DNA from: Plumapathes pennacea
Lineage: Eukaryota; Cnidaria; Anthozoa; Antipatharia; Myriopathidae
Length of the DNA stretch: 64,000 nt
Direction: 5' to 3'
Assembly: GCA_964036295.1 (NCBI GenBank)
Contig: OZ038463.1
Span: forward strand, 34,735,295 to 34,799,294
A model generated the notes under the pieces. It made no database searches. It was given only the letters and a program-made list of their open reading frames with translations, and was not told the origin of the DNA. Shown in pieces: positions 31,606 through 56,500 of this stretch. Both the position numbers and the translations under genes were made by a program. Positions within the stretch are counted from its first letter, which is position 1. Each line of letters starts with the position of its first letter.

Positions 31606-32381
31606 TGGAGATTACTGTCGAGAGTAAAAGGGTAAAAAAGAAACGAACCAATGTTTGCAGTGTTCAAGAGAACTGACAGTCGCATCATCTTGAATCAAGA
31701 GATCACTGCTATTGTGATTTCATACTGCACAAGACCGAGTATTATTATACTGCAGCTATAGCTATGTGTTGAAAGCAGAAGTTTACCTCGGTCTGATCAT
31801 TCTTTGTGATTTTTATAAAACCTAGGGAAAAGATGCATTTTTATTTCTACGCTCAGATACGAGATGTTACAGTTGTTCAAGAACAGGGCTCGAAAATCCG
31901 CCAGTCCGATCCGCATGGCTAGCACGCGTACAGCATCCGCTTAGAGGGGGGGGGTTCCTATATAAAAAGGAGCGGGAGGGGGGGGGGATTTTTCATATAA
32001 AGGAGCATCGGGAATTTTCGTTTTAACCCCCAAGAGGTACTAAAATGTGTGTGGCTCAAGCACATTTTGACCCCTAGAAGGTACCAATGAAGGCATACCA
32101 AGAACTTTCAGGAGTTTCCAGCTGAAAAGAACAGCCCGTTTGTCGTTTACAGTGCTGTAACTTCGGGAATGTGACCCATACAATAAAAGTAAAACCCGTG
32201 ATGTTAACCCCTAAGAGGTACGACGGGCATCCCCGTCCTTTTTTGTATGGTAGTCCCACAAGCTTTGCACTTGTACCAGTAGCTGATTCGAAACTCGCAG
32301 TTCGCTGTGCACGACGTAGAAGTAGCGCGATGTATGCATAGTGCCACAGAAACAACAACGTTTTATTGCTTACAAGTGTGC

Positions 32382-32387
32382 TTTATT
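32382..32387 (-). terminator. Polyadenylation signal of LU gene A
   Basis: AATAAA on the minus strand (TTTATT here), about 209 bases after the stop. It is conserved, with its flank GTTTTCCAATAAAGCAC, after LU copies B (37879-37884), C (44534-44539) and D (53304-53309). Confidence 0.7.
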
Positions 32388-32595
32388 GGAAAACATGCTG
32401 TGCAATTACAATAGAAACCTGCAGAAAAAGATATCTTGTGAAAAAAAAATAAGCTGCAACCATTCCGAACTGAAACCAATGCGGCTAATAAAAAGAACCT
32501 TGCTCCCAATCGAAAAAAGCACAGTTATATATCGAGCTAATTGCTTCTTTCCGAGCGCTATATGTGCTTGTTGGGAGACTGCTGACAGCCGTCAC

Positions 32596-34476
32596 TCACT
32601 GAAACAGTGCCAAGACAGCGCATGACAGGATCAGGATACCGCTGACCACAGGTGCTGCGCCTGCATTGCAGAGGTCTTTCTCGCAGCAGCTAGCTTTACA
32701 TGTAGAATCTTTGACATCCTTGCATGCTTTCATGGTTGTGTCCACAACGTCGCAGCTTGCCTTGGTAGAGCAGGTTCGTGCGAAGCTTTTAGTTTCCAAT
32801 GATCCCACCTTATATTGCATCTCCATAGACATGCATCTGAATTTTTCAGAAAAGATTTCTGTAAATGACTGAACCAGCATCGTTGTGTAGAGACAAATAG
32901 TGTACAAAGAAAACACAAGTACACTATAGTGTAAAATTAGAACAATATTTACCTGTCAGCAGCAGCTCCACAATCCGTTTCCTTATTTTCACACTTGTCC
33001 CAGCTCTCGGACGAAGAGCATACATAGCACTTTAAGGCTTGACCTAGCGGAGATAACGCGTTCCATGATCAGTGATCGAGTCAGTTCTGTTCACAGTTCA
33101 CTCATTCTTTTGTGCGGTTTCGTTGTATATTTTTCCGTATTCCTTTCTCCTAAACAGTGTCTTGACCAATACAGACCAAAAACTAATAGTTTTACTAATA
33201 ACAATAAATATTAATAATAACTTTACTGATCAGTGTTCTTATTCGTTCCAAGCAACGTGAAGTAACATCAACTGACTTTCGAGCTCATAAGCTGGGGACA
33301 GCCCGTCGGAGTTGACTGACAGACAAATAAAGCGGCGAGAGAAAAATTCCCTCAAGTTTTACCCAAGTTTTGGTTGCTGCATATTACCTTCAAATCGTCC
33401 AGTTTGTGAGCAGAATATCAATGAAGACTGAGACGCTATTTCATTTTCTAACGAATTTACTTCCAGTTGGACCGCAGATATCAACAATCAGGTTTGACAT
33501 GCAGTTATCTATACTGTGATATTGGGCATGCGGAGAGCAGACGCATTTATACCCGTTTCTCTCGCAAACTCAAAATACAGATTCTCCCAGCCTTTAAAAG
33601 GAAAGTGTATGAGTGATGTAGTGAGAACTGATAGTTTAATCAGCTTTCATCTCTGAGCAAGTTAGTGCAGAAATCAAAGGAGAAAAGTGAAATTAAAGTT
33701 GATGACTCGTGCAGTGAAAGAGTTGACGTTTTCAGTTAGGGCTATGAATTATATATAAACCTTGGGAACGCCCAGTTCGTGATCAGAATATCAATGAAGG
33801 GACGCCTAAACCTTCAATAAACAACTGGTAATTTTCAGTGCATCGAGGTATACACTTTGCAAGCAGAATATCAATGTGGGACGCTGTTCAAAACCAATGC
33901 ATTATTTAAAGCTGCTATTTAAAGTCGCTATCTGGTGGTTTTTAGAGCATCTGAGGTATATACCTTGGAAAACCCTTCCGCGCAGAATATCGGTGAAGCG
34001 GGATCAACGTTGCCTAGTACTTCAAGAACAAATTTTGTAAACATACCACCATACAGCTGTCAGCTAACTTATAACAAGGTAAAATAGTAGTCTATTTTTC
34101 CAGCTTAGGTTTGGAAGAGATTCTCGTGTAGCATGCAGGCTTGATACACATGGTCATGTTCATGTAAAGTTAGAGATTGAAGTTACTGAAGATAGATGCT
34201 GTAAATGCATTGAAATTAAACTAGACATACTTAGAATTATCGTGGCGAGGCCTCTTATTCGAGCAGAGCAAACATTAGCTTTATGATATTGACGCAATTC
34301 ACGAATTAACAAACAGACTTGTACTCGTTGTAGGCACAAACTCTGGACAAAAAACTGCTGCTTGCAGATCTTGGAATGCACAAGGAGACAGAAAGATCGA
34401 TAACGGTATTCATAACTAAGTTCTTACCGAGTCCAACAGTGACAAGAATCAACACAGCAATGACAGCGGCCTTCAT
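32596..34476 (-). CDS. LU-domain (Ly6/uPAR-type) GPI-anchored protein, copy A
   Basis: Small secreted cell-surface protein; ligand unknown. Three exons: 34428-34476 (signal MKAAVIAVLILVTVGLG), 32953-33043 and 32596-32836, 126 residues in all. The mature chain should begin near LKCYVC. Cysteines: LKCYVC, WDKC, TDC in exon 2; RCM, RTC, ASC, KAC, TC, then the family signature SCCEKDLCN. A C-terminal hydrophobic tail VVSGILILSCAVLALF after small residues fits a GPI-attachment signal. Exon 3 is placed at TTCAG|A because only this acceptor keeps frame (exon 2 ends in phase 2) and avoids a stop. Member of a minus-strand tandem family; the LU fold is shared with CD59 and uPAR. No function can be assigned. 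Confidence 0.85.
33044..34427. other. Intron 1 of LU gene A
   Basis: Holds a CCTTTCACTCCCAAG-family fragment (about 33560-33725) and recurring satellite-like motifs (GCAGAATATCAATGAAG, GCATCTGAGGTATA) found in other copies. No further exon is recognised. Confidence 0.6.
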
Positions 34477-35717
34477 CTTCGTTATTTTGCGGTGATAACA
34501 GGTTTTGTGGAGTACGCAGCTCAGCTCAGAGTTCTTCGACAAAATTAAGTTTTGTTTGTCACACCCTGACTAAAATGTCAAGACTAACAAAGCTATCCAA
34601 AAACAGCCAATCAGAATTCATCAATTGGCAGTCTGCATCATAGGTTTGATTCGTTTCTGAGCGACAGCTTGAGATCCTTGTCATTCAAATTGCTTTGTCT
34701 TTCTTCAATCAGTCAGGGAACAGATTGTGAGTGATGAGCTCATCACCTGGAAATTTTTGACGAAACAGAGGACGCAAATGAAACTTGTATTGCAATAGAC
34801 AAGCAAAGTAGAAGCAAATATTTTGAAGAACAGTAGTCTGGATGTTTAGCGCAAACCTTTAAGCAATACCGTGCGTTCAGTTGTGCGTGAATACACGCTT
34901 CTTTACTGAAAGCCTTGGCGCGGTACACATGAACTACACGGATAATCTAGTGTGCATTTTAAGCATCACTGTACTATAGGTACCGCCTGCGTAAAGACAA
35001 ATGATTTTGAAGCTTGGAAGGTACGCGTTCTTTATAGGCCTGAAGCGATGACGCACTTCACTCAGACACCCCGCCTCCCACTGACCTTGGGATTGCAAGG
35101 TCTTCTTACACTCCTTCGATACCAAACCGGAGTTGAACATTTTTTTTTTTTTTTTTTTTTGTCGCGTGATGCTTCTCATTTGCGCCATGCATTTAAAACT
35201 GGTATTTGTAGGCGTTGTCTGGAGGATTTTGCCGCATCTGATGCGAGATCCAGTTTGCAAACAGAGTATCAATATACTGATGCAGGAACGCTGTTCGAGA
35301 CCAATGCATTTACAGCTGTTATTTAAAGTCGTTATCTGGTGGTTCTTAGAGCATCTGAGGTCTGCGCAGAATATCGGTGGAGAATCAACTTTGCCTACTT
35401 CCAATAACAAATTTAGTTCATTGACCACTATAGCTGCCAGCTAACTTATAACAAGGTAAAATAGCAGTTTATAGTTTCCAGCTTGGGTTTGGAAGAGTTT
35501 ATCGTGTAGCACGCTTGATATACTTGGTAACGTTAAAAAACGATTGAATTAATTGAAGGGAGAGGCTGTAAACGCATTGGAGTTAGATCAGACGTAGAAT
35601 TATCGTGGCGGCGAGGCCTGTTATTCGAGCAGAGTAAACATAAATCTTGGAAAGAATTGCACAAGGAGGCAAAAAAAAAAAAATCGATAACAGTATTACG
35701 TACTAATAAGTTCTTAC

Positions 35718-35766
35718 CGAGTCCAACAGTGACAAGAATCAACACAGCAATCACAGCGACCTTCAT
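35718..35766 (-). pseudogene. Spare LU signal-peptide exon
   Basis: A 49-bp exon 1 coding MKVAVIAVLILVTVGLG with an intact donor (CTCG|GTAAGAAC), upstream of copy A's own exon 1 but with no exon 2 or 3 between the two. It could be an alternative first exon and promoter for copy A, or a relic of a lost copy. Confidence 0.65.
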
Positions 35767-37878
35767 CTTCGTTATTTGGTAGTGATAACAGGTTTTGTGG
35801 AGTACGCAGTTCAGCTTGACAGTGTTCTTCGGCAGAATGAAATTTTGTTTGTCACACCCAGAATAATGTCAAACATCATGGACTAACAAAGCTATCCAAA
35901 AACAGCCAATAGAATTCATCAATTATCAGTCTGGAGGCTGGACTCGTTCTTGAACGACAGCTTGAGATCCTTGTCAGTCAAATTGCTTCGTCGGCCTTCA
36001 ATCAGACGTCAAAGAACAGATCCAGTGTAAGCGCAGCACTGAAACATTTTGATAAAATGGAGGCCGCGAACAAAACCTGCACTTCAGTAGACACAACAAT
36101 TTCCAACTCAGAGTGCGCTGAGTACAAGCAAAAACCTTCTTTAATGAGTGAATACACGCTTCTTTACATAAGCTTTGGTGCGCAGTACACACACACTCAA
36201 ACTACACGAATAATCTACGCGTGAGTGTTAAGCATCACTGTACTCTAGGTACCGTCTGCGTAAAGACAAATGATTTTAAAGCTTGGAAGGTGCGTGTTGT
36301 TTATACGCTTGAAGCGATGACGCACTTCAGTTGACATCCACTGTCTCGCATTCTTGCCTGCCGCAAAGGTTTCTGCCCCTAGGCAATTGTTTGGCTCGCC
36401 TCTCAGATAAGGCGGGATTTGGAGGTCTCTGTCGGCTTAAAAAGTGTACAAAAAGGTGGTTTTATGGATGGAGGGAAGTTGGTGTGTAGAAAACAATATA
36501 TTTCATACAGTAAACAAGACTAATTGCCAGTGATCTCGTGCGTCATTGTACAGCGGGACAAAAAATGAATAGAATCAGGGACGCGGAGGTTCCGGGTGAG
36601 GAATTTTTGCCGCGCAAGGAGTACACGAAAATTTATGGTAAGAGTCAGTTTTTGACATGCCGGATCCAAGAACTCATATATTTCCCTTGCCCTCTTTTCT
36701 TCCAATTTCAGTATTTGTTGAGAGAAAGAGAGAGAGGGAGAGAAAAGGAAGGCCCCGTGAGAACTGAACCTTGACAAAGTGGAATATGATTCAGTTGTAC
36801 AGGCTTAAGATGATAAAAAGTTGGGACATCAATCCAACATTAGCTTAATCGTGCTTTGAACAACTGGCCCAGAGAAATAGTATTCCTTTTTTTCTACACT
36901 AGCAACCCTGTTATGGAAACTTGACTAGAAATTTTGTTGTCACATTGGATGGGGGGGGGGGGGGGTACTTCCATATATGTGTGTGCTGCCCCAAAGTGTA
37001 TCATTTTCAGCAGGGGGGGGGGGGGGGGTGGGAGGGGTCCTGCATAAAAAGGAGCATTGGGAATTTTCGTTTTGACCCCTAAACCCTAAAAGGAACTAAA
37101 ATGTGTGTGGCTCAAGGTTATTTTGACCCCTAAAAGGTACCAATGAAAGCATACGTGAAGAACTCTCGGGAGTTTCCAGCTGAAAAGAACAGCCCGTTTA
37201 TTGTTTACAGTGCTGTGAATTTGGGATATGGTGACCCATACAATAAAAGTAAAACCCGTGATGTTAACCCCTAAGAGGTACGACGACCATCCCCGTCCTT
37301 TTTTATGTGGGAGTCCCACGGGCTCCGCACGCATGTACCAATAGCTGAATGATCCGAAACTCGCACCCACACCCCTCCCCTCAAATTTTGCTAGCCATGT
37401 ATAAAATGAATCGACTAATGACGCCGTAAAAGAATTGAAAGAGGGTGATTCGGGTTGTGGTGGCAAATAAACAACCCGGCATATAAACAAAAAGACGACG
37501 AGAGTTATGATGCTGAATCATCTTCTTTCTCGTGGTGGATCCAGCAACGTAAAGCTTAATCTGAACATCTGTTTGTATGTGTGATACGGTTTACGGTTTT
37601 GAAGTGATTGTTGCCTAATGAAGGGGGCAGGCAGCACTCTCTCCACAGATTACTATTAGCATTGAAATGCTGAAGTGAAAACATGTATAAGGCGCATATC
37701 GTGCATGAACGACGATGTCGTTGGTTATTGTTATTATAATAGTCCAAACAAGATGTAACCATAACCGAGGAAAAAAACGATTAGAAGAACGTCGCAGTTC
37801 GATGTACACGATGTAGAAATAGCGCGATGTATGCATAGTGTCGCAAAAATAACAACGTATTATTTTTTCCAAATGTGC
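35767..37878. other. Intergenic region between LU copies A and B
   Basis: Made of duplicated array flanks: the CGTAAAGACAAATGATTTT block (36258) also seen at 34992 and 59810-59830, fragments of inverted-repeat elements (36806-36875), G-runs (36951-36966, 37016-37028) and the CCCCTAAGAGGTACGACG block found 3' of each LU copy. ORFs here have no family features. Confidence 0.55.
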
Positions 37879-38089
37879 TTTATTGGAAAACTTGCTGTGC
37901 AGCTACAATAGAAACCTGCAAAAGCAGTTATCTTGTGAAGAAAAAAAAAAAAAAAAAAAAGCGGCCAATGAAATGTGGCCAATGAAAAGAACCTCGCTCC
38001 CAATCGAAAAAAGCACCGTTATTTATCGAGCTAATGACTTCTTTCCGAGCGCTACGTATGCTTGTTGGGAGACTGGGGACAGCCGTCAC

Positions 38090-41000
38090 TCACTGAAACA
38101 GTGCCAAGACAGCACATGACAGGATCAGGATACCGCTGACCACAGGTGCTGCGCCTGCATTGCAGAGGTCTTTCTCGCAGCAGCTAGCTTTACATGTTGC
38201 ACCTTCGACATCCTTGCATGCTTTCATGGTTGTGTCCACAACGTCGCAGCTTGCCTTGGTAGAGCAGCTTCGTGCGAAGCTTTTAGTTTCCTTTGATCCC
38301 ACCTTATATTGTTGCTCCATAGTCATGCATCTGAATTTTTCAGAAAAGATTTCTGTAAATGGCCGAACCAGCATCGTTGTGTAGAGACAAATAAAGCAAA
38401 AAGAAAGCACAAACACTAGCCGTGTAAAGTTAGAACAATATTTACCTGTCAGAGAGAGATGTACAATCCTTTTCCTTATTTTCACACTTGTCCCAGCTCT
38501 CGGACGAAGAGCATACATAACACTTTATGGCTTGACCTAGTGGAGATAATTCCATGATCAGTGATCGAGTCTACTCTTCAGTGACACCGCGGAAATACGT
38601 TCTTGATGTCACTTCCGTTGGTCAGCGTTCGCCGCCATGGCTGTCTGACTTCTCACATTTCGAGTTAAAATTCACGTCATGTGCAAGCCTTATTTTTCTT
38701 GTGCTAAACTTATGTTATAGAAAATGCATGGAACTAACTTACAGTTGAGTGTCGAGTTCTATTATTGAGTTTCTTGGCCAAGTCTTGAGGTTTTACGAGC
38801 GTTACATTTAACTACAAAATCTGCACTTGAATCCATGGCTTTGTGCAATAACCGCTGACTCAAAAAGCAAGGTGACCGCACGATCGAAAAACGTATTTCC
38901 GCGGTGTCGTGCATGAAGAAACTACCAACATGCACAATCCCTAACTTCTTATGGAAAAGCCACAAATCAAAGAAGCTGAGTTGATTGTCGCCCCGGCTTC
39001 TTAAATAGGAGTGGCGTCTTCATCATTTCGGTTCAGGGTTCACTCAGTCTTTTGTGCGGGTTTCGTTGTTTAGTTTTCCGTTGCTGTGACGAATTCCTCT
39101 CTCCTACTTGTCTTCACCAACATACAGACCAAAGACTAGTACAGTAGTTAATAACAATAATAAGTTTTGTCGCATGAAAACGTGACAGATGCTGGGGTTT
39201 AATTTTATTGTGGAAACTATCCTCACGCATCATTAGAATTCTTTAATAGCAGTCTCTGGACTAGAGCAAGACTCCCAAGACTGATCAACTTCAATTTTCT
39301 TACCAGAAAAAATATTATACAGTATAGGGAACTTTGCCTTTGACATCTTGCTCAAATGAAATCTGATTTAGAACTACAAATTATAATTACAACACTCATA
39401 AACTAGTGCTTCAAAAGGTTGACATAATTTTGAGCTTGGTAGTGAAAGAGTCGGCCATGCCAGCAAAGTAACAGTAATGCGTGACTTATCTTATTTTCGT
39501 GTACAATCGATTTTGCCGAGGCCACGGTTAATATCAGCCTACGCTTTATTTATTTACCTATTTTTTTCTTCTTTTAAAATGCATTTCTTTTATCAGGCTT
39601 TCTGAATTTCCAGTCGGTCTGTTATATTTCAGAGCTATTATCACCGAGGTTTTGGTAAATTCGCGACGGTTGTTTGACAAGAGTATGTTAAAGTTGAAAA
39701 CCTGTGTTAACCGGGAGCGGCTTCAGCTTGTCGAAATGTTTCTATCGTTTGATTGTTTGCTTTGCTTCGCTTAATTTTCACCAGAAATAAAATACTGTAC
39801 ACAACTGGAAGAAGAATACGAAAGTGAATATAATTGAACAAAACTGCAAGGGTGCAACTATATATGTCAACAAAATCTCTACTTGAAACTAAGGGCCCGG
39901 TCGCACTAGGAAGTTTAGTCGATAATAACTCAGCATCGAGAGCAATACGACGGCTTCTTCAATGTTTGGTAGCAACTTGCTGACATATATTTCTGGTGAC
40001 AAGCGCTGTTTGCACTTTAAATGATGCAAATATCGATATTAATGTCGTCAAAGTTACGAGTGCGACCGGTTCCTAAGACAAAAATAAGAAAGGCTTCTAA
40101 ACCGCTTGCACGTGAACATTATCCAATCAAATTACAGTTTTTTTTTTGCTTCACATCATCAAACTCCAAAATCCTGGAGGGTGTTTTTTTTTATCAATTA
40201 CATACCTATACGCTTTGGCTTTCGGGTGAAGACAACTAACGGCCCAGCATAAACTAACTATATGCTATACTTTAGTGGAGAAACTGAAGGAGAACCTTAC
40301 ATTGAAATTGATCACTCTCGGGCAATTTAAAAAGGCTTAACATTTTAAGTTTGAGCACTTATGAATTATATATAAACCTTGGGACGCCCAGTTCGTGATC
40401 AGAATTTAAGCTTAAAAGTTCTGTTTTTGTCGTAATTTTTTGGATGTTTTTATTTGTTTGTTTTTTCGTTTTTTTTTTTTTTTTTTTAATGCGGATTGAC
40501 AAAACCTAGACTTAAACTGTTGCGCGAAGAGCCAACGCCTGTTTAACTCAATCCAGGCATTGCATAAGCGAGAAGAACTTAAGGTGATGTTACACGAGAC
40601 GATTTTTTTTTAACGACGATTTTTCGCCCAACACCTACGATTTTGTAGCTAGCGCTTTGGCTTTTACTCTAAAAACATGGCGAACCTTCGCCAAAGGCAG
40701 AATTTTGTGCAAAGATTGCTATTTATTGATAGTTCGACGACTACTAGGCAAGAAGTATAGAAAAAAAATGTTGCGCAAAAAATCGTTGTTAAAAATCGTC
40801 TCGTGTAACATCACCTTTATCAGTGAAGGCCAACGCACTCCAACTGCTGCGATAACCACCTAAATAATTTATTCCGTTTTCGTTTCAGTCAGGCTTCTTC
40901 TTGTGCGGTTCGACCAATGCAAGCCATTTAAACTGTTATTTATAACTTGTTATTTGGTGGCTTTTAGCGCATCTAAGGTACACAGTGCGAACGCTCACCT

Positions 41001-42546
41001 CGCGAGCAGAATATCTAATTCATCTAGGACGCTGCCACAATAACAAGCTTATTAATATTGATTCATTATTTTAGTCAGGTTTCTCCTTGTCGCTATCTGG
41101 TTGCTATTAGCCGCGTTTTCTAGTGGTTTTTAGCGCATTTGAGGTATACACCTTGCGCGGAGGTCCAGTTTGCAAGCAGAATATCAATATACAGGAACGC
41201 TGTTCGAGACCAATGCATTAAGTTGTTATTTAAAGTCGTTTACCTTGGGAACGCCCTTGTGCGCAGAAACAGTCAGTGAATGGTCAATGCTGTCCACTTC
41301 AATAGCAAATTTTGTTGACCACTAACTGTTAGCGAACTTATAACAAGGTAAAATATCATTACGAGCAGAATATCAATGATGAAGGGACGCTACTTCAATA
41401 ACAAAATCGATTATTTTTTTTGTCGTGATGTTTCTCATGTACGTATGCAAATAAAACTGTTATTTATACAAGTGTTGTCTGTTATTTTTTTTTTATTTGC
41501 GATCAGAATATCAACGAAGGGACTCTACTTCAATAACAAAGTAAATGCATTTAAAAATGATATTTATATAAGCGTTGTCTGGTGGTTTTAAGCGAGGTAC
41601 GGTGCGAACGTCCAGTTTGCGAGCAGAATATCAGCAAAGAGACGCTACTTCAACAATGGACTTGATAATTTTTTTTTTCTCGCCGTGATGTTTCTCATTG
41701 TGCGTAATGCATTTAAAATGATCACTATAAACGTTATCTGGTGGTTTTTAGCGCATCTGAGGTATACACCTTGCGAGGTACAGTTCACAAGCAGAATATC
41801 AAAGGAAGGGACGCAACTTCAATAACATGCAGCCTTGATCATTCCTTTTTTGTCGCCGTGAGGTTTCTCATACGCAACTGCATTTAAAGCTGTCATGATC
41901 ACTGTGATCGTTATCTGGTGCCTTTTAGCGCATCTGAGGTATACACCTTGCGAGGTACAGTTTGCAAGCAGAATATCAATATACAGGAACACTGTTCGAG
42001 ACCAATGCATTTTATAAAGCTGATATTTAAAGTCGTTTACCTTGGGAACGCCTTTGTGCGCAGAAACAGTCGGTGAATGGTCAATGCTGTCCACTTCAAT
42101 AACAAATTTTGTGGACCACTTTAACTGTTAGCGAACTTATAACAAGGTAAAATATCAGTCCATTTTTCCAGCTGGGGCTTGGAAGAGATTCTCGTATAGC
42201 ACGCTTGATATACACGGTCATGTTCATATTCCTTCGTATTTTAATATTGCACGTAGGCCGCGGAGAGGCGCTAAACGCATTGACTTAAGACGTAGAATTA
42301 TCGTGGCAGCGAGGTCTGTTATTCGAGCAGAACAAACAGTATTTGGCTTTATGATATTGACGCAATTCACAAATTATTAAAAAAGACTTGTGCTCGTTAT
42401 GGGCAAACTCCGGGCAAGAAAGTGCTGATCACCTGAAGATCTTGGAATACACAAGGAGGCAAAAAATCGATAACAGTATTCATAACTAAGTTCTTACCGA
42501 GCCCAACAGTGGCAAGAATCAACACAGCAATCGCAGCGATTTTCAT
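38090..42546 (-). CDS. LU-domain GPI-anchored protein, copy B
   Basis: Exons 42498-42546 (signal MKIAAIAVLILATVGLG), 38446-38536 and 38090-38330; 126 residues with the same exon sizes and phases as copy A. Exon 2 reads QAIKCYVCSSSESWDKC then EKDC; exon 3 starts RCMTMEQQYKVGSKETK and ends with SCCEKDLCN plus the hydrophobic GPI tail. The long intron 1 (about 4 kb) contains an inverted-repeat element right upstream of exon 2's conserved flank, a satellite-like array and a GGTCGCACT element, so the pairing with exon 42498-42546 is by order only. An ORF running through exon 2 and intron 2 in another frame (to 38518) is a by-product of the open 115-bp intron. Confidence 0.8.
38581..39023 (+). mobile_element. 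ACACCGCGGAAATA element, copy 2, in LU gene B
   Basis: Interrupts a flank that is continuous beside copy C: the sequence ATCGAGTCTACTCTTCAGT is followed by GTTCACTCAGTC at 45241-45290, but here about 440 bp lie between. Internal inverted repeats ACACCGCGGAAATACGTT and AACGTATTTCCGCGGTGT are near-perfect. Confidence 0.8.
39270..39452. mobile_element. CCTTTCACTCCCAAG-family fragment
   Basis: Contains CTCCCAAGACTGATCAACTT and GAGCTTGGTAGTGAAAGAG at its two ends; a diverged copy. A close duplicate lies at 54711-54898 in the equivalent place of LU copy D. Confidence 0.65.
39897..40069. mobile_element. GGTCGCACT element, copy 2
   Basis: Begins GGTCGCACTAGGAAG and ends CGAGTGCGACCGG. Colinear with 11425-11604. 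Lies in LU gene B intron 1. Confidence 0.8.
40970..42150. repeat. Satellite-like array in LU gene B intron 1
   Basis: Repeating degenerate units of about 140-200 bp carry GCGCATCTGAGGTATACACC, then GCAGAATATCAATAT or a similar block, then TTCAATAACAA and a T-run with GTCGTGATGTTTCTCAT. At least seven units are seen; single units are scattered through the introns of the other copies. Confidence 0.75.
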
Positions 42547-44530: not shown

Positions 44531-44760
44531 TGCTTTATTGGAAAACATGCTGTGCAATTACAATAGAAGCCTGCAGAAAAAGTTATCTTGTGAAAAAAAG
44601 AAGCTGCAACCATCCCGAGCTGAAAACTCATTGCGGCTAATGAAAAGAACCTTGCTCCCAATCGAAAAAAAAAAAAAAAAAAGGCATCGTTATTTATCGA
44701 GCTAACTGCTTCTTTCCGAGCGCTACATGTGCTTGTTGGGAGACTGGGGACAGCCGTCAC

Positions 44761-47176
44761 TCACTGAAACAGTGCCAAGACAGCGCATGACAGGATCAGG
44801 ATACCGCTGACCACAGGTGCTGCGCCTGCATTGCAGAGGTCTTTCTCGCAGCAGCTAGCTTTACATGTTGCACCTTCGACATCCTTGCATGCTTTCATGG
44901 TTGTGTCCACAGCGTCGCAGAGTGCCTTGGTAGAGCAGGTTCGTGCGAAACTTTTTTTTTCCAATGATCCCATCTTATATTGTTGCTCCATAGTCATGCA
45001 TCTGAATTTTTCAGAAAAGATTTCTGTAAATGGCTGAACCAGCATCGTTGTGTAGAGACAAATAGTGTACAAAGAAAACACAAGTACACTATAGTGTAAA
45101 ATTAGAAAAATATTTACCTGTCAGAGGCAGCTCCACAATCCGTTTCCTTATTTTCACACTTGTCCCAGCTCTCAGTCGAAGTGCACGTGTAGCACTTTAA
45201 GGCTTGACCTAGCGGAGATAACGGGTTCCATGATCAGTGATCGAGTCTACTCTTCAGTTTTGTTCACGGTTCACTCAGTCTTTTGTGCTGTTTCGTTGTA
45301 TATTTTTCCGTATTCCTTTCTCCTAAACAGGGTCTTGACCAATATACAGACCAATAAAAGAAATAATAACTTTACTGATCACTGTTCTTATTCGTTCCAA
45401 GCAACGTGAAATAACATTACTGACTTTCTAAGCAACCTGGTATAACATTACTATAACTTTCGAGCTCATAAGCTGGGGCAGCCCGTCGGATTTGACAGAC
45501 AAATACAGGGGCGAGAGAAAAATGTCCTCGACTTTTAGCCAAATTTTGGTTACTGCATGAATTTCCTTGTATCGCATAATTACCCTAGAATCGTTTAGTT
45601 CGTGAGCAGAATATCAATGAAGACTGAGATATCAACTATCAGCTTTGACATGCGTTCATTCCAATCAACATATACTGAGATTTGCACTTAGAACACTGGC
45701 ATGCGAAGAGCAGAGATGCATTTAACCGTTCCACTCGCAAACTCAAAATACAGATTCTCCCAGCCTTTAAAAAGAAAGTTTATGAGGGATGTAGCGAGAA
45801 CTGATACTTTAATCAGCTTTTATCTCTGAGCAAGCTATCAAAAGCAAAGTTACTAACTGTATGCTATACTTAGTGCAGAAATCGAAGGAGAAAATTGAAG
45901 TTAAAGTTGATCACTCTCGGGCAATGAAAGAGTTGACGTTTTCAGTTAGGGCTATGAATTATATATAAACCTTGGGAACGCCCAGTTCGTGATCAGAATA
46001 TCAATGAAGGGAAGCCTACTTCAATAACAACTTAAGAGGGTTTTCGCTGTAAACGCCAGTAATTATCACGGAAAAACGAAACAATTCTTGTACCAACACA
46101 ATTTATTTGTAATGAGAATTTTTTGCCACTTCCTTGAAGACATTGATGCCAGACATCTTTCACTGTAGCACCGAAAGATAATTCACAAAACTGTCCAATA
46201 AGCAGGACGACTAATATTCCTACGAAACTCTATGAATTTTTGCAATGATAATGTACGTACTATTGCACATTTTGAGCTAGAAAGGCAACCAAAAACACTC
46301 ACATCTTCCCTTACACTTCTTGACTATTTTCGGTGTTACTCATACATGATCATCTTACATCAAACTAGGAAATCACAATAAATCACCGAAATAGTGCTTC
46401 TTTTTCCGGTACAGACTTTTGCGCGCATTGCTCGAATTTAGAGCAGAACTAACCTTTTTTTGTCTCGATGCTTCTCATTTGCGCAAAGCATTTAGAACTT
46501 TTTTAGGCATTGTCTGGTGGTTTTTAGCGCATCTGAGATATACACTTTGCGACTAGGTCTAGTTTGCAAGCAGAATATCAATGTGGGACGCTGTTCAAAA
46601 CCAACGCACTATTTAAAGCTGTTATTTAAATTTGTTATCTGGTGGTTTTAGAGTCTCTGTGATATATACCTTGGGAACACCCTTGTGCGCAGAATACAGA
46701 CTACTTCAGTAACAAATTTTGAGAATTGACCACAATAGCTGTGAACTAACATATAACAATCAGATAATAGCAGTCCGGCTATTTTTCCAGCTTGGGTTTG
46801 GAAGAGATTCTCGTGTAGCAGGCTTGATATACATGGTCATGTTCATGCATGTAAAGTTAGAGATTAAAGTCATTGAAGGGAGAGGCTGTAAACGCATTGA
46901 AATTAGATCAGACGTAGAATTATCGTGGCGGCGAAGTCTGTTAATTATTCGAGCAGAGCACTGAAACACTGGCTTTTATGATATTAACGCAATTCACGAA
47001 TGAACGAAAAGACTTTTACGCGTTGTGGGCACAAACTCTGGGCAAAAAAAACTGCTGCTTGCAGATCTTGAAATGCACAAAAAAGCAAAAAGGTCGATAA
47101 CAGTACTCCATAATTACAAGTTCTTACCGAGTCCAACAGTGGCAAGAATCAACACAGCAATGACAGCGACCTTCAT
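44761..47176 (-). CDS. LU-domain GPI-anchored protein, copy C
   Basis: Exons 47128-47176 (signal MKVAVIAVLILATVGLG), 45118-45208 and 44761-45001; 126 residues. Exon 2 reads QALKCYTCTSTESWDKC then ETDC, the most diverged exon 2 of the intact copies. Exon 3 starts RCMTMEQQYKMGSLEKK and keeps RTC, ALC, KAC, TC and SCCEKDLCN before the GPI-type tail. A polyadenylation signal lies at 44534-44539. A second intact exon 1 (48437-48485) sits further upstream. Surface protein of unknown ligand. Confidence 0.85.
46030..46245 (-). other. Small exon-like ORF, copy 1
   Basis: Minus-strand open stretch after an AG acceptor (AATTCATAG|AGTTTC). It reads VGILVVLLIGQFCELSFG (signal-like), then TVKDVWHQCLQGSGKKF, INCVGTRIVSFFRDNYW and a stop after LQRKPS. 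A homologue with the same order lies at 51025-51207. There is no ATG in frame upstream, so if real it is an internal exon. Protein family not recognised. It lies in LU gene C intron 1. Confidence 0.3.
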
Positions 47177-48436
47177 CTTCGTTACTTGGTGGTGATAACA
47201 GGTTTTGTGGAGTAGTCAGCTCAGCTCGACAGTGTTCTTCGGCAGAATGAATTTTGCTACTTTGTCACATCCTAAATAATGTCAAACATCATATGGACTA
47301 ACAAAGCTATCCAAAAACAGCCAATCAGAATTCATCACTTGACAGTCTGCATGGAGGTTGAATTCGTTCCTTAGCAACAACTTGAGAGGCCTTGTCAGTC
47401 AAATTGCTTTGTCTTTCTTCAATCAGTCAGGAAACAGATCCTGAGTGATGAGCGCATCACTAAAAAATTTATAAAATAGAGGACGCGAATGAAACATTGC
47501 AATATAGACACAAAAAATTCCAATTCAGAGTGCGCCGAGTGGGTTCAAGGAAAAAACTTGAGGAAACAGTAAGTCTACATGATTAGCGCAAACCTTTCGG
47601 TCAGTTGTGCGTGAATCGGTACGCTTCTCTGCTACAAAGCTTTGGCGCGCAGTACTGATAAACGCAAACTACACTGATAATCTACGCGTGAGTTTTAAGC
47701 ATCACTGTACTCCAGGTACCGTCGCATAAAGACGAATGATTTTGAAGCTTGGAAAGTACATGTTATTTATACACTAGAGGCACTTCAGTCAGACAACCAC
47801 CGTCTCGCACCCTTGCCTGCCGCAAAGTCTTCCGACACTCCTTCATTAACAAACCGGAGTTGAACATCTTTTTGTCGTGATGTTTCTTATTTGCGCAATG
47901 CATTTAAAACCGTAATTTGTAAGCGTTGTCTGGTGGGTTTTAGCGCATCATTCTGAGGTATACACCTTGCGAGGTCCAGTTTGCATGCAGAATATCAATG
48001 TACTGATGCAGTGATGCTGTTCGAGACCAGTGCATTTAAAATTCTTATTTAAAGTCGTTGTCTGGTGGGTTTTAGCGCATCTGAGGTGTGTACAGAATAT
48101 ATATCGGTGAAGGATCAACTTTGCCTACCTTCAATAAAAAAGTTTGTTGATTGACCACTATAACTGTCAGCTAGCTCTTATAACAAGGTAAAGTATCAGT
48201 ACATTCTTCCAGCTTGGGTTTGGAAGAGATTCTCCTGTAGCACGCTTGATATACTTGGTAATGTTCATAAGATATTGAATTCATTGAAGGGAGAGGCGGT
48301 AAACGCATTGAAATTAAACCAGAGGTATAATTATCGTGGCAGCGAGGTCTGTTATTCGAGCATAGCAAAGAAAGGTCTTGGAATTGCACAAGGAGGCAAA
48401 AAAGATTGATAACAGGATTCATATCTAAGTTCTTAC

Positions 48437-48485
48437 CGAGTCCAACAGTGGCAAGAATCAACACAGCAATGACAGCGACTTTCAT
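48437..48485 (-). pseudogene. Second spare LU signal-peptide exon
   Basis: Intact 49-bp exon 1 (MKVAVIAVLILATVGLG, donor CTCG|GTAAGAAC) about 1.3 kb upstream of copy C's nearest first exon. Either an alternative first exon for copy C or a leftover of a lost copy. Confidence 0.65.
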
Positions 48486-48714
48486 CTTCGTTATTTGGTG
48501 GTGATAACAGGTTTTGTGGAGTACGCAGCTCAGCTCGGCAGTGTTCTTCGGCAGAATGAATTTTGTTACTTTGTCACATCCTGAATAATGTCAAACATCA
48601 TGGACTAACAAAGCTATCCAAAAACAGCCAATAGAATTCATCAATTATCAGTCTGGAGGTTGGACTCGTTCTTGAACGACAGCTTGAGATCTTTGTCAGT
48701 CAAATTGCTTTGTC

Positions 48715-49270
48715 ATCGTTACATGGATGAAAAACTAGATCTATATAAGTGCAGTAATGCGGAAGTGCAGTGCAAATAGGAAAAAAAAGTGCCGTGCAGT
48801 GCAGTGCAGTAAAGTAAGCCAAACAAATAATACGACAAATCCTAGCTTGTAGGTATCTAGCAAAGTAGGCTATTTTTAAGTTTTGTTTTGAAAGCAGAAA
48901 TGCATGGAGAGTTTCGGATGTCAGAAGTGAGAGAGTTGAAAAATTTTGGACCTTGATAATGGATGGAAAACTGTCTAATTTGGGTTCTGCAGAAAGGTAG
49001 ATAGTAAGATTTGGCATTCCTTGTGTTATAGTTATGCACCTGTTTAACTAATGAAAAATAATCATCAAAGCATTGGGGGAGTAGCCCATTTTCGTACAAG
49101 AACATGAAATTCCCTAGTTGATATAAATAAATTTGCTCAAGTTTTAGCAACTTGAGGTCTTTAAAAATTGGATCTGTGTGAGCGTCATAAGAGTCCTTAT
49201 TAATAATTCTCATTACTCTTTTTTGGAGGACAACTAAACGGTTGAGGTTCGAAGGAAACGCCGGATCCAA
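48715..49270 (-). mobile_element. 5'-truncated LINE, 3' end of reverse transcriptase ORF
   Basis: The minus-strand ORF to the stop at 48857 gives LNRLVVLQKRVMRIINKD, DPIFKDLKLLKLEQIYLYQL, HNYNTRNAKSYYLPFCRT and YQGPKFFNSLTSDI, the conserved tail seen after the reverse transcriptase in many LINE elements of marine invertebrates. The catalytic part is absent. The 3' side holds repeated TGCACTGCAC. The insertion sits next to a deletion in the LU array. Confidence 0.75.
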
Positions 49271-49361
49271 GACCTCGACCGACATGCCGGATCCAAGAAC
49301 TCATATATTTCCCTTGCCCTCTAGTTCTTCCATTTTCGGTTTAACTGAAATTTCAGTATTT

Positions 49362-49365
<4 letters not shown>

Positions 49366-49422
<57 letters not shown>
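49366..49422. repeat. (GA)n microsatellite
   Basis: About 28 GA units. A shorter, impure version lies at the matching place 36721-36742, showing that the two blocks are duplicates. Confidence 0.95.
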
Positions 49423-49428
<6 letters not shown>

Positions 49429-49624
49429 AGGCCCCGTGAGAATTGAACTTTGACTAAGTGGAATATGAATGAGTTGTACAGGCTTAAGATGATAAAAAGT
49501 TGGGACTTAATCCAACATTAGCTTAAACGTGCTTTGAACAACTGGCCCAGAGAAATAGTGTTACTTTTTTGCTACACTGGCGACACTGTTATGGAAACTT
49601 GACTTGAAATTGTTGTCACATGGG

Positions 49625-49898
49625 ATATCCGGGGGGGGGGGGGGGGGGGGGAGTTACTCCCATATATGAGCCATATATGTATGTTCTGTCCCAAAGGGTA
49701 TCATTTTCAGCATTTTAGTCTGAAATAGGGTATCAATTTTGAGCCTTTGGTCTGAAATAGAGTCAGATATTTTGATATTTGGTCTGAAAAACGGTCGAAA
49801 ATCGCAAATGTTGGTCTAAAATTGGTAAGGGTGTCAGTCCCTGGCGGCACACTCCCACCCAAAACTTTGAGGAATACCCCCCCCCCCCCCCCCCCCCA
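49625..49898. repeat. Dispersed repeat bounded by G-run and C-run
   Basis: A pure G-run (49631-49651) and C-run (49877-49897) form inverted ends around GGTATCATTTTCAGC and GGTCTGAAATAG motifs. Related to 29150-29560 in reverse. Confidence 0.7.
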
Positions 49899-50888
49899 AA
49901 AAAAAATATATATATATAATATTATAACAGTCTAAACCAGCCCTTAATATATTGAATCAGAAAATACAAGATGTACACCATTTCCGTATTAACGCAATTG
50001 TCCCAGCTCTCGGACGAAGAGCATACATAGCACTTTATGGCTTGACCTAGCGGAGATAACGCGTTCCATGATCAGTGATAGAGTCAGTTTTGTTCACGGT
50101 TCACTCAGTCTTTTGTGCTGTTTCGTTGTATATTTTTCCGTGTTCCTTTCTCCTAAACAGTGTCTTGACCAATATACAGGCCAAAGACTAAAAGTTAATA
50201 ATAACAATAAAAAATAGTAATTACTTTGCTGACGAGTCAAATGTGTTCTTCTTCGTTCCAAGTAACCTGTTACTAAAACATTACTATGACGTTCGAGCTC
50301 ATAAGCTGGGGCAGCCCGTCGGAGCTGACAGACAAATAAAGCGGCGAGAGAAAAATGTCCTCGAGTTTTAGCCAAATTTTGGTTGCTGTATGAATTTCCT
50401 TGTATCGCATAATTCCCTTGAGCGGAATGTCAATGAAGACTGAGACGCTCTTTTAATTTCTAACGAGTTTACTTCCAGTTAGACCGAAGATATTAACAAT
50501 CAGGTTTGACATGCATTTATCAACATATACTGATATACTGGGCATGCAAAGAGCACACGAATTCAACCGTTTCTCTCGCAAACTCAAAAATACAGATTCT
50601 CCCAGCCTGTAAAAAGAAAGTGTATGAATGATGTCGTGAGAACTGATAGTCTAATCAGATTTCATCTCTGAGCAAGGTATCAAAAGCAAAGTTACTAACC
50701 ATATGCTATACTTTAGTGCAGAAATCGAAGGAGAATTAAATTGAAATTAAAGTTGATCATTCTCGGGCAATGAAAGAGTTGACGTTTTCAGTTAGGGCTA
50801 TGAAATATATATATAAACCTTGGGAACGTCCAGTTCGTGATCAGAATATTGATGAAGGGTCGACGTCTACTACTTAAATAACAACGTA

Positions 50889-51020
50889 AGAGGGTTTCCG
50901 CCGTAAACTCGAGTAATTATCACAGAGGGTTTCCGCTGTAAACTCGAGTAATTATCACAGAGGGTTTCCGCTGTAAACTCGAGTAATTATCACAGAGGGT
51001 TTCCGCTGTGTTTACTCTCC
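50889..51020. repeat. 35-bp tandem repeat
   Basis: Units beginning AGAGGGTTTCCGC(T/C)GTAAAC start at 50889, 50924, 50959 and 50994, an exact 35-bp period. The unit is an expansion of the 3' end of the neighbouring small ORF (RDNY, LQRKPS). Confidence 0.9.
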
Positions 51021-51024
51021 CTTA

Positions 51025-51207
51025 CTAGTAATTATCACGGAAAACCGAAACAATTCTTGTACCCACACAATTTATTTGTGAGAATATTTTGCCACTTCCT
51101 TGAAGATTTTGATGCGAGACATCTTTCACTGTAACGCCGAAAGATAATTCACAAAACTCTCCGAGAAACAGGAGGACCAATATTCCTATCAAACTCTTAT
51201 TTTGCAA
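51025..51207 (-). other. Small exon-like ORF, copy 2
   Basis: Homologue of 46030-46245: hydrophobic LIGILVLLFLGEFCELSFG, then TVKDVSHQNLQGSGKIF, INCVGTRIVSVFRDNY and a stop. One Cys of copy 1 is replaced (HQN for HQC). It starts at a TTG, not ATG, with a stop just upstream, so a complete gene cannot be claimed. Confidence 0.3.
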
Positions 51208-53549
51208 TTATGTTAACGCACGCAATTATGTTAACTCACATCTTCCCTTACACTTCTTGACTATTTTCGGTGTTACTCATACATGATCATCTTACATAAT
51301 GAAACTAGGAAATTAACATAAATCACAGAAATAGTGCTTCATTTTCTGGTACAGGCTTTTTGCGTGGGTTGTTCGAATTTACAGCAGAAAACCTCTTAAT
51401 TATTATTTTTTGTCGAGTGATGTTTCTCATAGTGCAAATCAACCAATCAATCAGTTTGTGAGCCGATTATCAAACTAAGGGACACTCTTTCAATGACAAA
51501 TCAGAGTTGGTCATCTTTTTGTCGTGATGCTTTATGATATTGACGCAATTCACGAATTAACGAACAGACTTGTACTCGTTGTAGGCACAAATTCTGGGCA
51601 AAAAAACTGCTCCTTGCAGATCTTGGAATGCACAAAGAGGCCAAAAGATCGATAACAGTATTCATAACTAAGTTCTTACCGAGTCCAACAGTGGCAAGAA
51701 TCAAAGCAATGACAGCAACCTTCATCTTCGTTATTCGATGGTGCAGTAACAGGTTTTGTGGAGTACGCAGCTCAGCTCAGTGTTCTTCGCCAAAATTAAG
51801 TTTTATTTGTCACACCCTGAATAATGTCAAGACTAACAAAGCTATCAAAGAACAGCCAATCACCAATATTGGCAGTCAGCATGAAGGTCCTTGAGATCCT
51901 TGTCAGTCAATTAAATTTCTTTGTCTTCCTTCAATCAGTCAGAGAACAGATCGTGAGTGATGAGCGCATCACTGAAAAATTTTATAAGAGAACGCAAATG
52001 AAACTTGTATTGTAATAGATATAAAAATTTCCAATTCAGAGTGCGCCGAGTACAAGCAAAAAAAAAAAAGTCTGTACGATTAGCGCAAACCGTTACGCAT
52101 CACCGTGCGCTCAGTTGTGCGTGAATACACGCTTCTTTACTATAAGCTTTGGCGCGCGCGCAGTACACTTAAATAATAATAATACACTTGAAGCGATGAC
52201 GCACTTCAGTTGACATCCACTGTCTCGCATTCTTGCCTGCCGCAAAGTCTTCTACCCCAAGGCAAACCTTTGGCTCACAGATAAGGCGGAACCTGGAGGT
52301 CTCAGTCGGCTTAAAATGTGTAAAAAAGATGTGCATGAGGGAAGCGGGGACCTTGTTAAGCTTGGTGTGTAGACAAACAACATATTTCATAGAGTAAACA
52401 AGACAGGAGTTACCAATGATCTCGCGCGTCATTCCAGTGGGACAAAAAATGAATAGAATCAAGGAGGCGTGGGTTTCGGGTGGGGAGCATCGGAAATTTT
52501 CGTTTTAACCCCTAAGCCCTAAGAGGTACTAAAATACCAATAAACATACCAAGAAGTTATAGTTTTGGGAGTTTCCAGCTGAAAAGAACAGCCCATCAGT
52601 ATCGTTTACATTGCTGTGACTTCGGGAATGTGATCTAATGCAATAAAAGTAAAACCCGTGATGTTAACCCTTAAGAGGTGCGACGAGCATCCCCGTCCTT
52701 TTTCATATGGGAGTCCCACGGGCTCCGCACGCATGTACCAATAGCTGATCCGAAACTCGCACCCCCCACCCCTCCCCTCAAATTTTGCTAGCCATGTATA
52801 AAACGAATCGACTTATGACGCCGTAAAAGAATTGAAAGAGGGTGATTCGGGTTGTGGTGGCATAAAGAACCCGGCATATAAACAACGACATGACGAGGTT
52901 TATAATGCTGAATCATCATCTTTCCCGTGGTGGGATCCAGCAACGTAAAGCTTAATCTAAACATCCGTTGGTATGTGTGCTACGGTTTACGGTTTTGAAG
53001 TGATTGTTGCAAAATGCAGGGACAGGCAGCACCCTCTTCACAGATTGCATTAGCATTGAAATGCTGAAGTGAAAACTTGTACAAGGTGCATATCGTGCAT
53101 GAACGACGATGTCGTGTGTTGTTATTATAATAGTCTGAACCAGCCCTTATTATATTGAAACAGAAAACGCAAGATGTACACCATAACCGTGGAAAATAGA
53201 AACGATTAGAAGAACGTCGCAGTTCGCTATACACGATGTAGAAATAGCGCGATGTATGCATAGTGACACAAAAACAACAACGTATTATTGCTTACAAATG
53301 TGCTTTATTGGAAAACTTGCCGTGCAACTACAATAGAAACCTGCAAAAGCAGTTATCTTGTGAAAAAAAAAAACAAAACAAAACAAAACAAAAACCAAAA
53401 AAAAAACTGCAACTATCCCAAGCAGAAATTAATGCGAATGATTAAAAAACCTTGCTCCCAGTAGAAAAAAAGTACCGTTATTTATCGAGCTAATTGCTTC
53501 TTTCCGAGCGCTACATATGCTTGTTGGGAGACTGGGCTCAAGCCGTCAC

Positions 53550-56500
53550 TCACTGAAACAGTGCCAAGACAGCGCATGACAGGATCAGGATGCCGCTGAC
53601 CACAGGTGCTGCGCCTGCATTGCAGAGGTCTTTCTCGCAGCAGCTAGCTTTACATGTAGAATCTTTGGCATCCTTGCATGCTTTCATGGTTGTGTCCACA
53701 GCGTCGCAGAGTTTCTCGGTAGAGCAGGTTCGTGCGAAGCTTTTAGTTTCCAGTGCTCCCACTTTAAATTGCATCTCCATAGACATGCATCTGAATTTTT
53801 CAATAAAGATTTCTGTAAATGGCTGAACCAGCATCGTTGTGTAGAGACAAATACTGTACAAAGAAAACACAAGCACTAGCCGTGTAAAGTTTGGGCAAAA
53901 GTTACCTGTCAGAGCCAGATGGACAATCCTTTTCCTCATTTTTACACTTGTCCCAGCTCTCGGACGAAGAGCATACATAACACTTTATGGCTTGACCTAT
54001 TGGAGATAATTTCATGATCAGTGATCGAGTCTACTCTTCAGTGACACCGCGGAAATACGTTCTTGACGTCACTTCCGTTGGTCAGTGTTCGCCGCCATGG
54101 CTGTCTAACTTCTCATAAAACTCGAGTTAAAATCCCGCATTCGCAAACCTTATTTTTCTTGTGCAAAACTTATGCTATAGAAAATGCATGGCACTAGCTT
54201 GTAGTTGAGTGTCGAGTAATCGCATTGAGTTTCTTGTCTTTGGTTTTACGAGCGTTACATTTAACTACAAAATCTGTACTTGAATCCACCGGTTTTGTGC
54301 AATAACCGCTGACTCAAAAAGCAAGGTGACCGCACGATCGAAAAACGTATTTCCGCAGTGTCGTGCATGAAGAAAACTACCAACATGCACGATCCCTAAC
54401 TTTTCATGGAAAAGCCACAACTCAAAGACTGAGTTGAAAGTCGCCCCGGTTCTCCCATCAATTCGGTTAGTCAGCCGGGTTCACTGAGTCTTTTGTGCGG
54501 GTTTTCGTTGTTTAGTTTTCCGTTGCTGTGACGAATTCCTCCCTCCTTCTTGTCTTCACCAACATACAGACCAAAGACTAATACAATAGTTAATAATAAC
54601 AATAACTAATTTTGTCGCATGAAAACGCGACAGATGCTGGGGTTCAAGTTTATTGTGGAAACTATCCTCACGCATCATTAGAATTCTTAAATAGCAGTTT
54701 CTGGACTAGGGCAGGACTCCCAAGACTGATCAACTTCAATTTTCTCACCAGAAAAATGTCATACAGTATAGGGAACTTGGCCTTTGACACCTTGCTCAAA
54801 TGAAATCTGATTTAGAAACTACAAATTATAATTAAAACACTCATACACCAGTGCTTCAAAAGGTTGACATAATTTTGAGCTTGGTAGTGAAAGAGTCGGC
54901 CAGCAAAGCAACAGTAATGCATGACTTATCTCATTTTCGTGTACAGTCAGTTTTGCCGAGGCCACGATTAATCCAGCCTGCGCTTCATTACTTACCGATC
55001 TGTTTTTTCTTCTTCTAAAAGGCATTTCTTCCATCAGGCTTTCTGAATTTCCAGTCAGTCTGTTATATTTCAGAGCAGCTATTATCACCGAGGTTTTGGT
55101 AAATTCATGACGGTTGTTTGACAAGCCGGTATGTTAAAGTTGAAAAACTCGTAACAGCCGGGAGCGACTTCAGCTTGGCGAAATGTTTCTATCGTTTGAT
55201 TATGTTTGCTTTGTTTAGCTTAGTTTTCACCAGAAATAAAATTACTGTACACAACTGGAAGAAGAATGCGAAAGTGAATATAATTGAACAAAACCGCAAG
55301 GGCGCAATTACATGTCAACAAAAATCTCACATTACATATTTGAAAACTAAGCCAAAAATAAGAAAGGCTTCCAAACCGCTTGCACGTGAACATTATCCAA
55401 TCAAATGACAATATCCAATCAAATTAGATTTTTTTTTTTTTACTAAGATTTGATTTGGAATTTCCTTGTTTCGCATATTACCTTAGAATCGTTCAGTTCG
55501 TGATCAGAAATATCAATGAAGACTGAGACACCACTTTAAGTTGGACCGCAGATATCAACAATCAGCTTTGACATGCAGTTATCCCAATCAACATATGAGA
55601 TTTTCACTTAGAATACTGTGCAGGAAATTTTCTAATGCCGTGACAGGAAATTCTTTGCATTATTGTGATTTGAGTAGTCTGTAAGACAAGATCCTCCGAG
55701 CCAATGAGTGACTATGGGTGTGGTTAAATCTCAAGACAAAGTGAAAGGCAAGCGGATAGAGAGAGAGAGCTTTGTTGTTGTTCAGAGTAGTGAAAACATA
55801 CATCGAACTGTGATTATTGTGACCGTGTGAGTGTTCGTACTTCCGCACTTTGTGTTCTACACAGCTAGGCATGCAAAGACTGCATACGCATTCAACCGTG
55901 TTTCTCTCGCAAACTCAAAATACAGACTCCCAACCTTTAAAAAGAAAGTGTATGAGTGATCGTAGTGAGAACTGGTAGTTTAATCAGCTTTAGTTTCATC
56001 TCTGAGCAAGCTATCGAAAGCAAAGTTATTAACTGTATGCTTTACCCTAGTGGAAAAACTGAAGGAGAACATTGAAAGTAAATATGATCACTCTCGGGCA
56101 ATTAAAGGCTTTTAAAGGCGTTAAAACGATTTAAGTTTGGGCACTTATGAATTAAATATAAACCTTGGAGCACCTAGTTCGTGATCAGCATATCAATGAG
56201 GCTTAAAAATTCTGTTTTTGTTTTTTTTTTGTTGTTTTTTTTTTTTACATTGCATAGGCGAGAAGAATATCAGTGAAGGGAACAACACAACTGCTGCGAA
56301 AACAACCTTAATAATTTATTCCGTTTTCGTTTCAGTCAGGCTTCTTCTTGTGTGGTTCGACCAATGCAAGCCGTTTAAACTGTTATTTGACTCGTTATTT
56401 GGTGGCTATTAGCGCATCTAAGGTACACAGTGCGAACGCCCAGTTCGCGAGCAGAATATCTAATTTATTTCAACTGCGAGGTCCAGTCCACGAGATTACA

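Follow-up and report, generated by a model that had tools for sequence, protein, structure and literature searches.

The stretch of DNA analysed here (the window) comprises 64,000 nucleotides of the Plumapathes pennacea genome (GenBank GCA_964036295.1, contig OZ038463.1; C2:34735295-34799294). The assembly has 290 Mb in 24 contigs, and all comparisons were made within this one assembly. From 32.6 kb onwards the window carries, on the minus strand, an array of LU (u-PAR/Ly-6) genes which extends about 28 kb past its end. The joined stretch of 104 kb contained nine copies of exon 3 (designated A to I), nine of exon 2 and 15 of exon 1, broken copies counted. This work concerns the four genes A to D, which share a common plan: a signal-peptide exon, an exon 2 of 91 bp, an intron 2 of 115-116 bp (115 bp in a preliminary description of this DNA) and a final exon that encodes a hydrophobic tail. 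According to the splice sites read from the sequence, intron 1 is in phase 1 and intron 2 in phase 2. Gene A consists of exon 3 (32596-32836, coding to the stop codon), exon 2 (32953-33043; acceptor TAG, donor GTAAAT) and two copies of the signal-peptide exon 1 (34428-34476 and 35718-35766). The corresponding parts of gene B are the coding part of exon 3 (38090-38330), exon 2 (38446-38536) and a single exon 1 (42498-42546). Gene C comprises the coding part of exon 3 (44761-45001), exon 2 (45118-45208) and two copies of exon 1 (47128-47176 and 48437-48485), and gene D the coding part of exon 3 (53550-53790), exon 2 (53906-53996) and one exon 1 (57153-57201).

The products of A to D are predicted to be secreted LU domains with a hydrophobic tail like that of glycosylphosphatidylinositol (GPI)-anchored members. 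All four passed the PF00021 cut-off of 24.8 bits (A 32.0, B 31.6, C 33.2 and D 35.7 bits), A as the spliced protein and B, C and D with exons 2 and 3. The cut-off of PF00087 (Toxin_TOLIP; 21.2 bits) was passed as well, with 21.4-26.1 bits, and each protein scored lower there than with PF00021. The translations contain the ten-cysteine LU pattern, ending in CCEKDLCN with the asparagine after the tenth cysteine; the mature proteins possess 12 cysteines, two above this pattern. The splice sites also give the typical LU gene plan of three exons with the signal peptide alone on the first. The hydrophobic C-terminal tail follows the motif NAGAAP in A to D, F, H and E, and variants of it occur in G and I. 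By analogy with other LU families, the proteins probably serve to bind partners through their finger loops. There was no sequence match among solved structures at E ≤ 1, and a protein search with the spliced A protein returned 23 candidates, none of them at E ≤ 0.001. A model of exon 3 alone (mean predicted local distance difference test score 42.9, predicted template modelling score 0.24) was of too low confidence for use.

The genes reside in units of two types, which are recognised by the flanks common to their members. Type 1 is represented by A and C, type 2 by B, D and F, the last of which is located right of the window. A and C differ by 15% in the 3' flank and by 20% in the 5' flank, and B and D by 10% on either side. 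Between the types the near flanks are 54-61% different, which is about the level of unrelated sequence. A region of 736 bp (32332-33067 in the coordinates of A, minus strand) can nevertheless be aligned across A, B, C, D and F. In 100-bp windows from 33067 to 32332 pairs of A to D were 71-99% alike; for F the likeness was 66-78% in the front of exon 3. The edges of this region are abrupt because of two inserts in the units of B, D and F. One of about 430 bp lies at the 3' edge (37366-37791 in B) and one of about 450 bp at the 5' edge (38572-39022 in B); both have copies in D and F. Once the inserts are passed, A and B again have similar flanks (84% and 74%). The insert on the upstream side is a dispersed repeat that is 84% alike to 28544-28119, where it is inverted, and that occurs also at 54043-54446. 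The abrupt edges had raised the idea of a mobile cassette of exon 2 and exon 3 placed in foreign flanks, which was dropped when the flanks proved alike beyond the two inserts.

The alignable region of A to D contains 32 sites that divide the four genes two against two. Twenty of them pair A with C and B with D (AC/BD), eight support AD/BC and four AB/CD. These sites are not mixed but follow each other in series. At the 5' end there are 13 AC/BD sites (33048-32920), which begin in the 5' flank and continue across exon 2 as far as intron 2. They are followed by four AD/BC sites at 32829 and 32820-32818 in codons 4 and 7 of exon 3 (patch 1, 32818-32829), by three AB/CD sites at 32757, 32756 and 32747 in codons 28 and 31 (patch 2, 32747-32757) and by another four AD/BC sites at 32712-32704 in codons 43-45 (patch 3, 32704-32712). 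The series ends with seven AC/BD sites and one AB/CD site, mostly AC/BD in the 3' untranslated region (3'UTR). The pattern is also visible in the proteins. In exon 2, ETDCGAA of A and C stands against EKDC of B and D. Codons 4 and 7 of exon 3 encode S and M in A and D but T and Q in B and C, and further along A and D have KDSTC where B and C have EGATC. ASCDVVD of A and B corresponds to LCDAVD of C and D. The motifs and coordinates given in the preliminary description, together with its groupings of exon 2 (AC/BD) and of the exon 3 start and the KDSTC site (AD/BC), were all recovered. Over the 240 bases of the exon 3 coding part the copies are 90-95% alike, and within the region there are 11 differences private to A, 20 to B, 16 to C and 17 to D.

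Is this pattern compatible with a single tree? In a parametric bootstrap over the 736 bp (Hasegawa-Kishino-Yano model with four gamma rate categories, HKY+G4), 12 sites conflicted with the best tree, AC/BD; the simulated mean was 2.9 and the maximum 10. For each of the three trees, none of 1000 simulations reached the observed conflict. The approximately unbiased (AU) test favoured different trees in different blocks. AC/BD was preferred in the 5' part, which includes exon 2 and the first part of intron 2 (2a; rivals p ≤ 1.2e-4), AD/BC in the second part of intron 2 (2b) with codons 1-10 (rivals 0.014) and in codons 41-80 (0.0027), and AC/BD once more in the 3'UTR (0.038-0.039). Exon 3 as a whole followed AD/BC (0.047 and 0.0037) and the entire region AC/BD (0.0012 and 0.038). 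A hidden Markov model (HMM) switching between the three trees gave the same path for all values of rho from 0.005 to 0.05: AC/BD at 33067-32920, AD/BC at 32919-32454 and AC/BD at 32453-32332. At rho 0.005 the log-likelihood was -1823.0 with switching and -1830.9 without, a gain of 7.9. No segment of the HMM over the three trees was assigned to AB/CD. A permutation test similar to 3SEQ, applied to 60 ordered triples, identified D as a child of B and A (p = 1e-4) and B as a child of D and C (p = 4e-4; p values before correction). Some triples with F were at the floor of 5e-5 but depended on an odd patch in F, which is described below. The AC/BD events are unevenly distributed as well. None of the six events in codons 1-45 of exon 3 supported AC/BD, compared with 13 of 14 outside (p = 1.8e-4), and this contrast survived the merging of sites within 12 bp (0/3 versus 8/9, p = 0.018). 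Two groupings are therefore well supported: AC/BD for the flanks, exon 2, the beginning of intron 2 and the distal 3'UTR, and AD/BC for the stretch that starts inside intron 2 and takes in most of exon 3.

The mosaic structure of D can be followed with the help of F. There are 23 columns in the region in which A and C agree against B and F, and 20 of these can be assigned for D. Along these columns D is of type 2 eight times, then of type 1 seven times and then of type 2 five times (contiguity p = 1.8e-4). Five of the seven type-1 columns are intronic, and selection on the protein does not account for these. The type-1 stretch of D spans no fewer than 146 bp (32919-32774) and no more than about 355 bp, and ends before 32564. 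The change of affiliation occurs within intron 2, 83 bp ahead of exon 3. In the 3' flank D and F differ by only 2.8% (11/400), compared with 10% between B and either of them, which contradicts a tree with B and F as sisters; in intron 2, F and B differ at 4 of 112 positions. Columns in which A and C agree against D and F, where B is often of type 1, were left out of the evidence because D and F may share new changes. B has no private change at all in codons 1-45 of exon 3 and shares codons 4, 7, 43 and 45 with C, codon 28 with A and codon 22 with F. Codon 14 is common to B and F in the nucleotide alignment; the protein alignment has a gap there.

Direct observations are the disagreement between trees, the order in which the patches occur, the flanks kept on both sides and the insert edges. 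We consider it probable that they reflect patchwise gene conversion among tandem LU copies. A to D would be tandem copies of a gene for a short LU protein with a GPI-type tail, derived from two duplicated unit types. The part from exon 2 to the 3'UTR, with intron 2 and exon 3, would make up a single block in which the types still resemble each other, and the two type-2 inserts, which interrupt the similarity on either side, may confine the exchange to it. Within this block short stretches would have been copied from gene to gene by non-reciprocal gene conversion, and even the smallest patches of 9-12 bp might each correspond to one transfer. A, B, C and D each keep their unit type on both sides of the exchanged stretch. 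The exchange must therefore have been patchwise and non-reciprocal, and plain unequal crossing-over does not fit.

A number of points weigh against this interpretation. First, the direction of each transfer is something we infer, and neither donor nor direction can be read with certainty. The block borders of the AU test were picked after the sites were known. AB/CD was the best tree for codons 11-40, but with rivals at 0.058 it is not significant alone. At rho 0.001 the HMM path had no switch at all, and the posterior of AD/BC (printed every 20 columns) exceeded 0.5 only at 32867 to 32647, so that the AD/BC segment of the HMM path (32454-32919) is well supported only at about 32867-32647 and its 3' end is vague. 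The agreement of D with A and C against B and F in intron 2b would fit one unrooted tree of five copies if taken alone, and comes into conflict only when the flanks are considered as well. The conflict in exon 3 depends on three tight clusters of sites. When like sites were merged within 3 bp, 24, 1 and 0 of 1000 simulations reached the observed conflict (for AC/BD, AD/BC and AB/CD, respectively). With merging within 12 bp the numbers rose to 322, 81 and 141, so that a single tree with varying rates was no longer rejected, and within 20 bp to 310, 249 and 351. Runs tests behaved similarly (p = 1e-5 unmerged, 0.013 at 3 bp, 0.05 at 6 bp, 0.64 at 12 bp and 0.79 at 20 bp) and were not significant for sites merged by 6 bp or more. 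We regard a count of one ordinary substitution per cluster as too strict, because identical changes of three to four bases recur far less readily than changes of one base. The merging controls nevertheless show how much depends on clustering. Finally, 16 of the 20 variable codons of exon 3 alter the amino acid, and parallel selection could mimic some of the patches.

In the light of these results the statements of the preliminary description need to be qualified. All three conflicting splits are indeed present, but only two are well supported; AB/CD (mainly three sites in two codons) is suggestive only and probably represents a further small patch. That a single tree cannot fit agrees with the simulations on all sites and no longer follows once sites within 12 bp are merged. 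Break points had been placed in and around intron 2. The HMM switch at 32920/32919 and the switch of D at the same place agree with this, but there must be at least one more break downstream, in exon 3 or in the 3'UTR, whose place is uncertain (32454 in the HMM path). As the agent of exchange, gene conversion or unequal crossing-over had been proposed, and only the former accords with the flanks.

The most serious alternative to gene conversion is parallel amino-acid change. If the same loop residues had been selected repeatedly, only exon 3 would look mosaic. In favour of this, all seven exon 3 codons with split sites alter the amino acid, the tree conflict is not significant with clusters counted once, and variability is concentrated in codons 1-45, where 25 of 135 columns vary in A to D, compared with 2 of 108 over the remainder of exon 3. 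The variable codons are located in exon 2 and in these first 45 codons of exon 3, and the last 35 codons show only two silent differences. Intron 2 (23 of 113 columns) and the 3'UTR (56 of 250) are variable too. As codons 1-45 vary like intron 2 and the rest barely at all, the front of exon 3 appears free to vary and its tail either held or homogenised. Against parallel change, the shared states are identical multi-nucleotide states (for example ATG versus CAA and TCT versus GCA), and the switch of D precedes exon 3. Positive selection in A to D was examined by pairwise comparison of amino-acid-changing (pN) and silent (pS) differences for exon 2 and for exon 3 as well as for sections of the latter, and no significant pair was found. 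In none of the six pairs did pN significantly exceed pS at Fisher p < 0.05 in exon 2 or exon 3, so the raised amino-acid change at the same sites for which the preliminary description had suggested a test did not appear. With four copies, diversifying selection is neither shown nor excluded, but as an explanation of the mosaics parallel change is unlikely.

Somewhat less credible still is an error of assembly or polishing, in which one copy was corrected with reads of another. In its favour, the copies are 90-95% alike along the coding part of exon 3, whose 240 bases are on the scale of a short read. On the other hand, the units should be easily told apart by flank differences of 10-20% within types and by the inserts between types. 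Each patch carries several linked differences, private differences are present in every copy, and no extra close copy was detected in the assembly: a DNA search gave eight matches, namely the four genes, F, H and two distant ones. Unequal crossing-over alone is the least probable explanation, since a single crossover swaps one whole side and A to D have the same unit type on both sides, although parts have clearly been gained and lost in the array (15 copies of exon 1 against nine each of exons 2 and 3, a remnant, X, that lacks exon 3, and the copy E, whose exon 2 was not found).

The neighbouring copy F deserves separate mention. In F (L009:4099-4323), codons 1-45 of exon 3 differ by 25-31% from those of A, B, C and D and contain three in-frame gaps totalling five codons. 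Of 35 private differences in F, 25 fall within 158 bp (32833-32676 in the coordinates of A). Private amino-acid changes exceed noncoding ones (21 at about 178 sites versus 6 at 404, p = 3e-7). Silent changes are raised too (5 at about 52 sites, p = 0.004), and no difference between the two kinds was evident (p = 0.81; 178 and 52 are estimated numbers of sites). Import from a lost donor and selection are therefore indistinguishable. No donor of the F patch was detected in the assembly, where the full-length matches were B (79%), A (78%) and D (77%) and four others were partial. In F a tyrosine replaces one cysteine of a conserved CC pair and the PF00021 score (24.4 bits) is slightly under the cut-off of 24.8. 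Given the lost cysteine, F may be decaying.

The array contains a number of further elements. Additional copies of the signal-peptide exon were found at 51678 and 63103 and seven more right of the window; in A, C and F there are two candidates for the first exon. The surplus copies may be alternative first exons or remnants of lost genes. The orphan unit X (49978-52156) consists of exon 1 and a truncated exon 2 in type-1 flanks, and exon 3 was not found. Copy E (61692-63153) possesses an open exon 3 and an exon 1, and no exon 2 was found between these; G, at C2:34814237, is a close relative of E. An open frame at 48860-49300 has 101 relatives at E ≤ 0.001 and appears to resemble the end of a retrotransposon reverse transcriptase. 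Tandem repeats are located at 23385-23766 and 26347-26631 (95-97% alike, with a spacing of 128 and 68 bp).

Gene conversion among tandem paralogues is a known process, the concerted evolution of multigene families. The array described here resembles it in the non-reciprocal patches between neighbours, in the flanks that are kept and in the edges at insertions: stretches of the genes follow different trees and both flanks keep their own history. It differs in that the tracts seem short (at least 146 and at most about 355 bp in D, and 9-12 bp for the small patches if these are single events). The mechanism is of a familiar kind, and the array presents it in a clear arrangement.

Clusters of LU genes are also known from humans. 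According to a review (PMC6600238), the human genes likewise have three exons, form tandem clusters and carry the GPI signal in exon 3. Their intron 2 is located at the tip of loop 2, whereas in the array it lies one residue ahead of the fifth cysteine. The main text of the review (PMC6600238) does not use the term gene conversion. Pdcyst-rich of the coral Pocillopora damicornis is described as a protein of the uPAR/Ly6/CD59 type with the family motif CCXXDXCN (PMC2728513). Like A to D it comes from an invertebrate and has a signal peptide and an LU-type domain, and its motif is present in A to D. In contrast to the array, Pdcyst-rich was described as one gene (PMC2728513), and it is likened here by its description.

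A further parallel may lie in the three-finger toxin genes of snakes, in which accelerated segment switch in exons (ASSET) has been described (PMC2474615, PMC2711939). The authors regarded recombination as unlikely, since the segments are small or recombination too coarse, and named no mechanism (PMC2474615, PMC2711939). Among the matches listed in a search of a limited open-access literature, none joined segment switch with gene conversion, which is weak evidence. Both systems have two introns and three exons, exon segments that agree or differ in changing combinations, and conserved cysteines (in the array, those of A to D). The exon segments of A to D, however, do not exceed intron 2 in divergence (25/135 versus 23/113); the array itself contains possible donors, and A to D have a predicted GPI-type tail. 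An excess of exon over intron divergence, as in ASSET, is seen in F alone, which differs from B at 4 of 112 positions in intron 2 and at 30 of 120 in codons 1-45. Tentatively, the array might be a working example of how short conversion patches reshuffle a few loop motifs into new LU proteins, and hence a candidate mechanism for the switching of three-finger segments. If so, patches would be traceable where the donors are present, as in A to D, and would look like an unexplained segment replacement where the donor is gone, as in F. LU genes diversify in many animals, whole-gene trees of their tandem arrays can mislead, and the exchange of exon segments in snakes lacks an accepted mechanism. 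Because copies, flanks, edges and partners lie side by side in one array, the idea that conversion of short tracts shuffles such genes becomes testable here, and the parallel to segment switching in snake three-finger toxins is worth testing.

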